This document shows positions 46,928-50,296 of a DNA stretch of 64,000 bases, piece after piece. The position numbers were made by a program, and so were the translations under genes. The notes under the pieces were generated by a model. It had not been told where the DNA came from. It saw only the letters and a program-made list of their open reading frames with translations, and did no database searches. Location: positions 1 through 64,000 of the forward strand of contig JALHOG010000002.1 in the NCBI GenBank assembly GCA_022843125.1, given 5' to 3'. The stretch's first letter is position 1. Each line of letters begins with the position of its first letter. This DNA comes from Ilumatobacteraceae bacterium (GTDB taxonomy: Bacteria; Actinomycetota; Acidimicrobiia; Acidimicrobiales; Ilumatobacteraceae).

Positions 46928-47895
46928 GCGGCCTGCTCGCATCGATCCCGAGCCCGCCGTGGAACAGCATCTCGCTCGGCCCGCTCGATCTGCGCTTCTA
47001 CGGCCTGATGATCGCGCTCGGCGTCATCGCCGCGGTGTGGCTCATGGGCAGGCAGCTCGAGTCGCATCGACTCGGCACCACCGACGACGCCGGTTCCATC
47101 GCTGTGTGGGGTGTCGTGGCAGGTGTGATCGGCGCCCGGCTCTATCACGTGATCACCGACTGGTCGCGCTTCTCGGACGATCTGGGATCGATCCCGAAGC
47201 TGTGGGAGGGCGGGCTCGGCATCCCCGGTGGGCTCGTCGTCGGCCTCGCTGTCGGCTCCTACCAGGCGAAGCGGCGGGGCATCGCTCCGGCGGTCGCGTT
47301 GACGTTCGCCGCCCCGGCCATCGCGCTGGCGCAGGCGATCGGTCGGTGGGGCAACTGGTTCAACCAGGAGCTGTTCGGTCGGGCCACCGATCTGCCGTGG
47401 GCCCTCGAGATCGACGACGAGCACCTGCCTGCCGGGTTCGAGTCGGGCACCACGTTCCACCCCACGTTCCTGTACGAATCGCTCTGGAATCTGGCGCTGT
47501 GCGTGGTGCTGCTGCGGATCCACCGCCAGCTGCGCCTCGGCCCGGGTCGGCTGATCGCCGTGTACGCGATCGGTTACGGCCTCGGACGGTTCTGGATCGA
47601 GGGTCTGCGGATCGACCCGACGAGCGAGGCAGGCGGGCTGCGGTTGAATCAGTGGGTCGCCCTCGGAGCCATCGTGATCGGCGTCATCGCGCTCGTACTG
47701 ACGCGCGGCCGGCGGTGGGACGTGCCGCCGCGCAGCGATCTCGGTGGCGACACGCCACCGCCCGCCGTGCTCGACGACCGCGCCGATGACGATCACGAAT
47801 CGCCGCATGCCGACGCCGACGCCGATGCCGGCGTGAGCGGTGACGGCGGTGGTGATGGTGGCGGTGGTGATGGTGGCGGTGGCGGCGGTGACTGA
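46924..47895 (+). CDS. lgt: Prolipoprotein diacylglyceryl transferase Lgt with acidic Gly-rich tail
   Basis: A 323-residue membrane enzyme that adds diacylglycerol to the lipobox Cys of preprolipoproteins. About seven helices are visible, and the Lgt signature GRWGNWFNQELFG (about 140-152) is intact, as are IPGGL and HPTFLYESLWNL. From ~265 onwards comes a hydrophilic tail with repeated Asp-Ala and Gly-Gly-Asp (DGGGDGGGGDGGGGGGD). The tail ends three bases before the next convergent gene. It is probably needed for the lipoproteins in this window. Confidence 0.92.
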   Translation: MSGLLASIPSPPWNSISLGPLDLRFYGLMIALGVIAAVWLMGRQLESHRLGTTDDAGSIAVWGVVAGVIGARLYHVITDWSRFSDDLGSIPKLWEGGLGIPGGLVVGLAVGSYQAKRRGIAPAVALTFAAPAIALAQAIGRWGNWFNQELFGRATDLPWALEIDDEHLPAGFESGTTFHPTFLYESLWNLALCVVLLRIHRQLRLGPGRLIAVYAIGYGLGRFWIEGLRIDPTSEAGGLRLNQWVALGAIVIGVIALVLTRGRRWDVPPRSDLGGDTPPPAVLDDRADDDHESPHADADADAGVSGDGGGDGGGGDGGGGGGD

Positions 47896-47898
47896 CCG

Positions 47899-49062
47899 TC
47901 ACTGCGGCGGTCGCGTCAGCCCTCGGTAGCGGACCGGGCGCTCGGACCGCTCCTCGTCATCGTGGGCGGCCCAGCCGGCGAGGCGCGCCAGCGCGAACAA
48001 CGGCGCGTCGTCGGGGAGCCTGCCGACGTACTGGAGTGCGCCCAACCCGACGTCGACGTTCGGCACCGTGCCGATCGTCCGGCCGGCCTCGGCGAGCAGG
48101 GCCTCGACGGCATCGTGGCGCTCGGTGGGTGCTGGGATCGCCCGCACCGCGTCGAGGAGCGGTGCGAGACGAGGGTCGGCGGTGCGGTAGACGGCGTGTC
48201 CGAAGCCGGGGAGGCGCCCGCCTGCGCGCAACACGGCGGCAACGGCATCGCGAGCGCCGCGGCGCTCGACGTCAGCGAGCATGCCGGCGACGGCCCGGCT
48301 GGCACCACCGTGGAGCGGGCCGGCGACCACGTGGAGGCCCGCTGCGAGTGCGTCGGCCGGATCGGACCGCACCGAGGCCGCGACGCGGACCGCGAGCGTG
48401 CTGGTGGCCAGCTCATGGTCGGCGAGCAGCACGAGTGCCCGATCGACCGCTGCCACGAGCGCCGGCGACGGCATCCGGCTCCATGCCGACGCAAGTCGTG
48501 GAGCGAGCGGCCCGCGCTGCGGTCCGCCGAGGAGGCTCGGGGCGATCGACAGCAGCCTGCGGGCTGTCGCCGGAGCGTCGGCAGGGTCGCCCGCAGGCCC
48601 GTCGAGCGTCATCGCTGCGATCGCCAGGCGCCGTATCGGAGTGATCTCGCCGGCCGCTGTGATCGAGGCCCGCGCCCGGGCCAGGTCGCTCCGGCTGATC
48701 GGCCAGATGACCGGTGCCGCCGCCAACCCGTTGCCCCACAGCAGCTCGGCGACCGCTTCGAACGAATGGGTGCGCGCGAGTTCGGCGGCGTCGTGGCCCC
48801 GGTAGCGCACGGCGCTGTCGTCGATCCGGGTGATCGACGACCGGATGGTGATGTCGATCGTCGGCTCGACCGGCACCGACCGGCGGCGGGAGCGCTCGAC
48901 CAGCTGCTCGAGGTCGTCGCGCGCGTACAGCGAGGTGCGCCCGTCCGGAGCGGAACGGCGGGTGACGAAGCCGCGACTGACGTATGCGTAGAGCGTGGGG
49001 ACCGCGACGCCGAGGAGCTGAGCCGCTTCGCCGGCGCGGAGGTACGTCGTCACGGTCTCCAT
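47899..49062 (-). CDS. Citrate synthase-like protein with N-terminal MerR/excisionase-type HTH
   Basis: A 387-residue fusion. Residues ~5-60 form a helix-turn-helix (YLRAGEAAQLLGVAVPTLY, then SRGFVTRRSAPDGRTSLY) of the MerR/excisionase type. The rest is a citrate synthase fold with catalytic-type His251 (GPLHGG), His289 (GFGHAVYR) and Asp337 (NVDVGLGAL), so the enzyme residues look kept. It is divergent from a second citrate synthase gene, with a perfect 31-bp palindrome between. A role as a metabolite-responsive repressor of its neighbour is inferred. The start could be moved a few residues; a longer in-frame ORF reaches 49104. Confidence 0.85.
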   Translation of the reverse strand: METVTTYLRAGEAAQLLGVAVPTLYAYVSRGFVTRRSAPDGRTSLYARDDLEQLVERSRRRSVPVEPTIDITIRSSITRIDDSAVRYRGHDAAELARTHSFEAVAELLWGNGLAAAPVIWPISRSDLARARASITAAGEITPIRRLAIAAMTLDGPAGDPADAPATARRLLSIAPSLLGGPQRGPLAPRLASAWSRMPSPALVAAVDRALVLLADHELATSTLAVRVAASVRSDPADALAAGLHVVAGPLHGGASRAVAGMLADVERRGARDAVAAVLRAGGRLPGFGHAVYRTADPRLAPLLDAVRAIPAPTERHDAVEALLAEAGRTIGTVPNVDVGLGALQYVGRLPDDAPLFALARLAGWAAHDDEERSERPVRYRGLTRPPQ

Positions 49063-49082
49063 CGTGGCCCGTTGCGTTGTCC

Positions 49083-49113
49083 TGATCAACATTGATGCAA
49101 TCAATGTTGATCA
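49083..49113. promoter_or_regulatory. Perfect 31-bp palindrome between divergent citrate synthase genes
   Basis: Arms of 14 bases (TGATCAACATTGAT at 49083-49096 and its reverse complement at 49100-49113) surround GCA. It is about 32% G+C in a ~70% G+C setting. It lies 20 bases upstream of one start (49062) and 28 bases upstream of the other (49142), where a -35 region would be. The obvious binder is the HTH of the adjacent gene. Confidence 0.85.
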
Positions 49114-49141
49114 TCGAGAAACACGGGTCGACACTCGCGGC

Positions 49142-50296
49142 ATGGATCACCTCATCGACGTCCCCGCCGGCTTGAACGGCGTCGCCGTGACCTCGACCGA
49201 GATCGGCGACGTCCACGGCGACGAGGGCTTCTACCACTACCGCGAGCACGACGCGACCGGGCTCGCTCGCACTGTCGGCATCGAAGCTGTCTGGTACCTC
49301 CTCGAACGCGGCGAGCTGCCGGACGCAACCGAGACCGAGCGCTTCCGCTCCGACGTCGCAGCGCACCGCAGGGTGCCGGATGCAGTGGTGCCCGTGATCG
49401 ACGCCGTCGCCCGCACGGGTGCGGCACCGCTCGCGCAGCTGCGCTCGGTGCTCTCGGTCTCGAGCGAGTCGCTCGGCCTCGCGCCGGTGCTCGACATCGA
49501 CGGCCCGGCCCGCGTCGATCAGGCGCGCCGCCTCGCCGCCGCGGTCCCGGCGGTCCTGGCAGCGCTCCACCGTCGAGCGCACGACCTCGCCCCGATCGTC
49601 CCCGACCCGACGCTGGGGCATGCCGCTGCGTACCTGCACGAGGTCACCGGGCGCGTCCCGACAGCAGCGCACGCGAGGGCCCTCGAGCAGTACCTCGTCC
49701 TCACGATCGACCACGGCTTCAACGCGTCGACGTTCACCGGTCGCGTCGTCGCATCGACCGGGGCGAGCCTGGCCGACGTGGTCTGCTCGGCGATCGGTGC
49801 GCTGGCGGGACCGCTCCACGGGGGCGCACCCAGCCGCGCCCTCGATGCGCTCGACGCGATCGGCACGCCCGAACGCGCCGCGGCGTGGGTGCGCGACGAG
49901 GTCGTCGCCGGACGCCGGATCATGGGCTTCGGCCACGCCGTGTACCGCGCGCCCGATCCGCGCTCGGGGCTGTTGCGGGAGGTCGCGGCGTCGCTCGGCG
50001 GTGAGTTGGTCGAACGGGCACTCGCGATCGAGGCCGAGATCCTCGCCACGCTCGCCGAGCTGAAGCCCGACCGGCCGCTCCCCAGCAACGTCGAGTTCTA
50101 CGCAGGCGTGATCATGGAGTCGGTGGGGTTGCCCCGGACGCTGTTCACCCCAACCTTCGCCGTGAGCCGGACGATCGGGTGGTGCGCACACGCCGTCGAG
50201 CAGGCGGCGGCAGGGAAGCTGATCCGCCCGAGCGCGCGCTACGTCGGCCCGCCCCCCGTCCGCCGGTCCGGACAGCCGCTGGTGAGCCACGGCTGA
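49142..50296 (+). CDS. Citrate/2-methylcitrate synthase-like protein
   Basis: A 384-residue citrate synthase-fold protein. His226 (GPLHGG) and His265 (GFGHAVYR) are conserved, and FAVSRTIGWCAHAVEQ matches the closing Arg motif. The usual catalytic Asp in NVDFY is Glu318 here (NVEFY). The start at ATG 49142 gives a normal N-terminus; the longer frame would cover the palindrome. Whether it makes citrate, methylcitrate or another product cannot be told. It is divergent from the HTH-fused paralogue. Confidence 0.88.
   Translation: MDHLIDVPAGLNGVAVTSTEIGDVHGDEGFYHYREHDATGLARTVGIEAVWYLLERGELPDATETERFRSDVAAHRRVPDAVVPVIDAVARTGAAPLAQLRSVLSVSSESLGLAPVLDIDGPARVDQARRLAAAVPAVLAALHRRAHDLAPIVPDPTLGHAAAYLHEVTGRVPTAAHARALEQYLVLTIDHGFNASTFTGRVVASTGASLADVVCSAIGALAGPLHGGAPSRALDALDAIGTPERAAAWVRDEVVAGRRIMGFGHAVYRAPDPRSGLLREVAASLGGELVERALAIEAEILATLAELKPDRPLPSNVEFYAGVIMESVGLPRTLFTPTFAVSRTIGWCAHAVEQAAAGKLIRPSARYVGPPPVRRSGQPLVSHG

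Follow-up and report, generated by a model that had tools for sequence, protein, structure and literature searches.

The 64,000-nt stretch of Ilumatobacteraceae DNA analysed here (the window) carries two divergent genes, one for a CitA-type citrate synthase (protein P0002) and one for a citrate synthase fold preceded by a helix-turn-helix (HTH) domain (HTH-CS, protein P0001). Comparison with relatives makes it probable, in our view, that HTH-CS is a transcription factor which represses the CitA-type gene and its own through an operator, using the citrate synthase fold as an oxaloacetate or citrate sensor. Control by HTH-CS of its neighbour and of its own gene is very probable: a conserved candidate operator lies between the two genes, accompanies the citrate synthase gene in five loci with the genes farther apart and overlaps both putative promoters in the family set described below. 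An earlier note on this DNA had proposed a self-contained feedback switch acting on the paralogue and on the switch gene itself. Comparison strongly supports the feedback control; "self-contained" is not supported, as the partner gene may be missing, replaced or located elsewhere, and, more tentatively, the ligands named there (oxaloacetate, acetyl-CoA or a product) would be narrowed to oxaloacetate or citrate.

In the scheme that we envisage, the winged HTH of HTH-CS would bind, with the protein as a dimer, the tandem palindrome R-TCAAYRTTGA-T situated between both genes. The bound protein would block the two divergent promoters, because the outer arms of the operator hold both putative -35 boxes (family set), and would so repress the CitA-type gene together with its own. 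As the promoter boxes are weak and a consensus scan gave no match, repression is a step that we infer. The citrate synthase fold would be the sensor. Since its oxaloacetate/citrate pocket is kept and the basic residues presumed to bind coenzyme A (CoA) vary, a small di- or tricarboxylic acid is the probable ligand, with oxaloacetate or citrate as first choice, and this acid would probably alter DNA binding. On a broader scale, the scales are evenly balanced on whether HTH-CS proteins form a multi-phylum family in which a citrate synthase has turned into an oxaloacetate/citrate sensor, one nearly unchanged operator having served targets that were swapped in evolution: NVE citrate synthases, fusions of CBS domains to citrate synthase, homocitrate/isopropylmalate-synthase-like enzymes, CoA transferases, and a LeuB-like gene accompanied by a citrate synthase.

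The candidate operator and the fused protein

The ATG starts of the divergent genes are separated by 79 bases (49063-49141), just as the earlier note had described for HTH-CS and the second citrate synthase-like gene. The gap contains a 31-bp near-perfect palindrome (Table 1) that was not mentioned there. Allowing up to two mismatches, the 14-base arm of this palindrome has two matches in the window, against 0.05 expected. In a set of 80 HTH-CS loci, the best match to TCAAYRTTGA within 250 bp upstream of the HTH-CS gene has no mismatch in 50 loci, one in 23 and two or more in seven. At zero to one mismatch, the motif is thus present upstream in 73 of 80 loci, compared with one of 79 downstream regions (one mismatch, none exact) and 32 of 1600 shuffles. 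Of the exact sites in 660,089 bases, 56 fall in the 300 bp preceding an HTH-CS gene and six elsewhere; the 11 permuted palindromes used as a control give none near HTH-CS and three elsewhere. Five of the six outlying exact sites directly precede a citrate synthase gene; the sixth, at L163:6227, is some 2.3 kb away from the start of HTH-CS. When 19 near relatives are included, the site at zero to one mismatch is found in 90 of 99 upstream regions, and a second [AG]TCAA occurs 15-19 bp downstream of it in 81 of these 90 (0.09 expected per region).

The 80 loci were collected by LYAYVSRG- and ADHELA-like patterns and include some close kin. They come from the Actinomycetota, Chloroflexota, Pseudomonadota, Gemmatimonadota, Myxococcota, Bacteroidota, Acidobacteriota and Deinococcota, many as metagenome-assembled genomes. 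Alignment A2 comprises 68 proteins of this set. The 96 HTH-CS rows examined below are P0001, the 80-locus set and 15 other relatives; the 69 partner rows are P0002 and 68 from the set, three of them gapped at the Asp/Glu column. Two contigs are apparently present twice (L018/L116 and L021/L148). The family set used for promoter layout consists of the window and nine relatives of its own family.

The exact tandem site was found in six of 296 genomes of the class, once in each and always beside an HTH-CS gene (in G667, HTH-CS was judged by the HTH motif in a 406-residue frame); a reversed-pattern control had no match. Among 61 genomes, at least ten have the tandem site without mismatch, each beside an HTH-CS gene among the matches listed. 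Matches at up to three mismatches, found in 39 of the 61, were taken as chance: among those listed, most lie away from HTH-CS and some are in genomes lacking it. In 25 further loci of the phylum, the HTH motif was read in 23, of which 19 have the site in a loose form. The window's own genome has TCAACRTTGA in four places, two of them within the operator. A wider regulon was considered and rejected, the other two places (contigs C4 and C52) being judged chance. By eye, frames in the C4 stretch (G000 C4:1-6000, L065) resemble antisense rRNA and are followed by a long run of N, and the C52 copy adjoins a frame resembling a LacI-type protein, with transporter-like frames. The palindrome was also considered as a terminator and discarded, a scan having given no terminator-like site.

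P0001 matches HTH_17 at residues 7-58 (Pfam, E 9.5e-7, 29.4 bits against a cut-off of 27) and, in frame after it, Citrate_synt (PF00285) at residues 73-376 (E 1.7e-52, 179.1 bits, cut-off 27). The in-frame fusion seen in the earlier note is thereby borne out, with HTH_17 as the N-terminal domain; its MerR label fares less well, P0001 falling under the Pfam cut-offs for MerR (19.5 against 28.2 bits) and MerR_1 (16.7 against 21.6 bits). The LYAYVSRG segment of the HTH is invariant in all 16 sequences of alignment A1, whose relatives were not selected by that segment. An AlphaFold model of P0001 (pLDDT 93.7) consists of a winged HTH, with helices at 10-17 and 21-29, strands at 35-37 and 44-47 and a helix at 48-60, and of a citrate synthase body. 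The best PDB matches of the model are citrate and methylcitrate synthases, a comparison that speaks for the fold of the body and for nothing further. His251, His289 and Asp337, whose retention the earlier note had reported, do align with the two His and one Asp found in solved citrate synthases, which we take to be the catalytic residues. Codon 4, GTG (49053-49051), may be the translation start instead of ATG 49062, because several relatives start there and the putative promoter points there.

Spread of the pair and displacement of the site

Full-length HTH-CS is present in 18 of 60 relatives, including seven of nine of the same genus; the fusion is therefore patchy. A divergent citrate synthase gene accompanies it in 16 of these 18 (seen in part at L022; none at L014 and L016). 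Within the 80 loci, the citrate synthase gene is divergent and at most 400 bp away in 52 and on the opposite strand farther upstream in 14, in some beyond other genes, so that 66 have an opposite-strand upstream copy. One of the remaining loci has it co-directional, one on the other side, and 12 have none in the stretch covered. Conservation of the pair, on which the earlier note had staked its reading, is thus found, patchy as the fusion itself is, and the rule that HTH-CS is always beside a plain citrate synthase is not supported, its partner being at times absent, exchanged for other enzymes or at another place. A plasmid pair in Agrobacterium fabrum C58 has the usual layout; plasmid HTH-CS genes of Comamonas and Thioclava lie opposite metabolic genes of other kinds, and similar sites are visible there by eye.

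Seven of the 80 loci have no site upstream of HTH-CS (L129, L131, L143, L175, L180, L173 and L181). The first five have their genes farther apart, with the site immediately preceding the citrate synthase gene (one mismatch in L131); the called frame runs into the site in L143 and L180, and hence the true start is probably further in. Where the genes are in tandem (L127), a site precedes each of them. A fumarase/aspartase-family gene (L175:2540-3937) stands opposite HTH-CS without an operator in L175, whose exact site is at the distant citrate synthase gene. Where no citrate synthase gene is present in the stretch covered (12 loci), the site is kept in ten. Genes opposite the site include seven of the HMGL-like type (homocitrate/isopropylmalate-synthase family; L146, L156, L157, L158, L160 and L166 by Pfam, L185 by similarity) and two of CoA-transferase family III (L125 and L159); in L163, the tenth of these loci, the site faces another gene. 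In L141, a LeuB-like gene of the isopropylmalate dehydrogenase family (L141:2710-3786) separates the operator from the citrate synthase gene.

Promoter layout, ligand and alternative readings

The promoter pattern sought was TTGANN in the outer operator arm, NANNNT at 17 bp and a start codon 6-7 nt further on. In the family set it is present on the partner side in nine of ten loci (the tenth having no partner) and on the HTH-CS side in all ten, where shuffling of the tail predicts 0.08 and 0.10, respectively. This layout suggests leaderless promoters with their -35 boxes inside the operator. Over all loci tested, the pattern occurs in 41 of 87 on the partner side and in 17 of 87 on the HTH-CS side, with about one expected; a looser count gives 44 and 17 of 98. 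The arrangement typical of MerR, an operator between the -35 and -10 boxes with a long spacer, is not what the loci have: the spacing appears to be 17 bp and the operator to cover the -35 box.

The same features bear on the possibility that HTH-CS, sitting on the same operator, recruits RNA polymerase when bound to its ligand. Weak -10 and -35 boxes would need such help, and the site ends at the -35 box. The 17-bp spacing, the back-to-back symmetry and the inclusion of both putative -35 boxes within the site nonetheless fit a repressor better, and we regard activation as unlikely.

The pocket of the presumed sensor is strongly conserved. His251 and the residues that we take to be oxaloacetate ligands (His216, Arg298, Arg360 and Arg380) are invariant in all 96 HTH-CS proteins, with His289 kept in 92 and Asp337 in 95. 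Two basic positions that presumably bind CoA behave otherwise. Lys or Arg occupies His+4 in 38 of 96 HTH-CS proteins versus 66 of 69 partners, and the position 8 residues before the NVD/NVE motif in 21 of 90 versus 63 of 64. These counts are weak evidence that oxaloacetate or citrate is a likelier signal than an acyl-CoA.

Near-invariance of H251, D337 and the oxaloacetate ligands, with H289 in 92 of 96 rows, would also suit a trigger enzyme, that is, an active citrate (or methylcitrate) synthase doubling as regulator, in which turnover or substrate occupancy sets DNA binding. The Asp kept in HTH-CS where the partner has Glu, and the Arg at His+4 of P0001, point the same way. We nevertheless hold this improbable given that only 38 of the 96 have Lys or Arg at His+4, that Gln replaces His289 in four rows (two from the same contig), and that Caulobacter CitC, apparently an HTH-CS protein, did not complement an Escherichia coli gltA deletion according to the part of the study available to us (PMC7083601).

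Adjacency of the genes in many loci brings up a further arrangement, in which HTH-CS and its partner would form mixed dimers and the amount of partner would directly control DNA binding. Citrate synthases are dimers, which counts in its favour, but HTH-CS and the operator are also found at loci that have no partner or have other enzymes in its place, and such a switch seems to us highly improbable. Hardly credible is the idea that the operator serves another regulator and HTH-CS is a mere neighbour with a relic HTH: MtrA and RspA1 are reported, in the portions of the sources seen, to bind at Streptomyces gaps of like kind, and where the genes are separated it is the citrate synthase gene that has the site. 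Yet the link of the site to HTH-CS extends over several phyla and is found in all six of the 296 genomes with the exact tandem form, LYAYVSRG is invariant (16/16) in relatives chosen without it, and loci lacking the citrate synthase gene still have the site in front of other genes.

A number of observations weigh against repression by an acid-sensing HTH-CS protein. The 80 loci, being found by LYAYVSRG- and ADHELA-like patterns, share a conserved HTH by choice. No more than 41 (partner side) and 17 (HTH-CS side) of 87 loci have the promoter pattern, and shuffling of the tail also breaks the start codon, so that the contrast with expectation is overstated. A consensus scan for sigma-70 promoters found none and the boxes are weak; what argues for them is thus solely their conserved position. 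Repression may not hold everywhere. The candidate site is absent from L074, L081, L083 and L085 among the 25 further loci. No site at zero to one mismatch exists in the stretch covered of L173, whose HTH-CS gene has no partner and is possibly a decayed copy or the user of another operator, nor is there a site in the stretch covered of L181, where the contig begins 51 bases before the gene. As to the CoA argument, P0001 itself has Arg at His+4, and Lys or Arg is found at -7 in 39 and at -6 in 35 of 90 HTH-CS proteins, some rows being misplaced. Finally, the catalytic triad is kept, so HTH-CS may be an active enzyme, and the failure of CitC to complement may be a matter of expression.

Surrounding genes and relation to known systems

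Table 1. Features of the divergent gene pair (positions in the window)
Feature	Position	Strand	Remarks
Candidate operator, 31-bp near-perfect palindrome	49083..49113	none	Two TCAAYRTTGA sites, 49086-49095 and 49101-49110, 15 bp apart
HTH-CS fusion gene (P0001)	47899..49062 (coding 49062-47902)	minus	387 aa from ATG 49062; stop 47899-47901
Winged HTH (HTH_17, residues 7-58)	48889..49044	minus	Pfam, alignment A1, structure model
Citrate synthase fold of HTH-CS (residues 73-376)	47935..48846	minus	Pfam, comparison with solved structures
Partner citrate synthase (P0002), CitA type	49142..50296	plus	384 aa; NVE, Glu318 replacing the catalytic Asp
Putative -35 box TTGATC, partner (citA-type) gene	49107..49112	plus	Outer operator arm; position conserved in the family set, weak consensus
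Putative -10 box GACACT, partner gene	49130..49135	plus	17 bp after the -35 box, 6 nt before ATG
Putative -35 box TTGATC, HTH-CS gene	49084..49089	minus	Other outer operator arm
Putative -10 box CACGAT, HTH-CS gene	49061..49066	minus	17 bp after the -35 box, 7 nt before GTG 49053

The partner is a full-length citrate synthase by Pfam (E 2.9e-101), though not a textbook one, since its catalytic Asp is a Glu (NVE); Glu is found in all 66 readable partner rows. The NVE motif recurs in PDB 2c6x, which we take to be Bacillus subtilis CitA, and in Mycobacterium tuberculosis CitA entries. Two N-terminal CBS domains are fused to the partner in three loci (L015:1824-3233, L021:1281-2717 and L131:2-1249); some targets therefore have a regulatory domain of their own. 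Besides the pair, the window's genome has two matches to the citrate synthase family, a strong one on contig C40 and a weak one on contig C24. The latter (L004, G000 contig C24:9344-12952) adjoins a frame that by eye resembles CoA-transferase family III. Among the neighbours tested, the pair is flanked on one side by HD/TPR, TetR and alpha/beta-hydrolase genes and on the other by gatC, amidase and gatB genes; next to the HTH-CS gene, the closest frame ends at 47895.

Among the matches listed in the literature searched, we found no description of an HTH-CS fusion as a regulator. A comparable pair is CitB/CitC of Caulobacter crescentus (CCNA_03757/CCNA_03758), whose two genes, accessory and citrate-synthase-like, have adjacent locus tags. 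As far as the available part of the study tells, CitB complements an E. coli gltA deletion and CitC fails to, and identity to B. subtilis CitA is 37% for CitB and 32% for CitC (PMC7083601). For five same-family pairs, comparison with B. subtilis CitA gives 35-38% identity for the plain NVE partner; for HTH-CS it gives 32% over about 190 residues (three pairs) or 26% over about 350-370 (two pairs). From the fit of these values we infer that CitB would be the plain partner and CitC the HTH-CS protein. The reading given here differs from that of the study, in which CitC is a putative citrate synthase; "helix-turn-helix" is absent from its main text, to the extent seen. Matches to one HTH-CS protein occur in 118 of 149 genomes of the family to which those five pairs belong, and matches to another in 64 of 75 genomes of one genus, apparently Caulobacter, the HTH not having been checked row by row in either count.

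Streptomyces citA3/citA4 (SCO5831/SCO5832) and S. albus slnwt_1427/1428 each share an intergenic region and are targets of MtrA and RspA1 (PMC12323332, PMC7411085, in the portions available). Both genes of these pairs are there called citrate synthases and treated as MtrA/RspA1 targets. Streptomyces loci from our collections have HTH-CS and the operator, as do seven of nine Streptomyces-like ones among the further loci. In Saccharopolyspora, SACE_0632-0633 are cotranscribed citrate synthase genes, from what was seen of the report (PMC8546615).

If the proposal is correct, bacteria of several phyla would directly read an acid at the entry of the tricarboxylic acid (TCA) cycle, using the very type of enzyme that consumes it. 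The annotation of genes now called citrate synthase would have to be corrected, and an operator/regulator pair would be ready for use in a biosensor of TCA metabolites. The Caulobacter data, with CitC inactive and CitB active in the part of the work available, may be accounted for as well.

The divergent regulator of B. subtilis CitA is CitR, a LysR-type protein. That system is like the window's pair in joining an NVE-type CitA to a divergent regulator, and unlike it in that CitR is not built on a citrate synthase fold. Likeness to the MerR family lies in the winged HTH of MerR/excisionase type and the palindromic site. MerR operators have a 19-20 bp spacer between the -35 and -10 boxes; HTH-CS differs by its apparent 17-bp spacing, a site lying over the -35 box and scores under the Pfam MerR cut-offs. 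Transcription factors that combine a DNA-binding domain with the fold of a metabolic enzyme, or one resembling it, include ROK repressors, MocR/GabR, BirA and PutA. HTH-CS has what broadly marks this kind, a DNA-binding-type domain on an enzyme fold and a conserved candidate operator at the presumed target promoters. The kind is known, the HTH-CS family and its operator appear undescribed, and we know of no member using citrate synthase. HTH-CS thus resembles ROK, MocR/GabR, BirA and PutA in combining a DNA-binding domain with an enzyme fold, and departs from them in the fold that is used.

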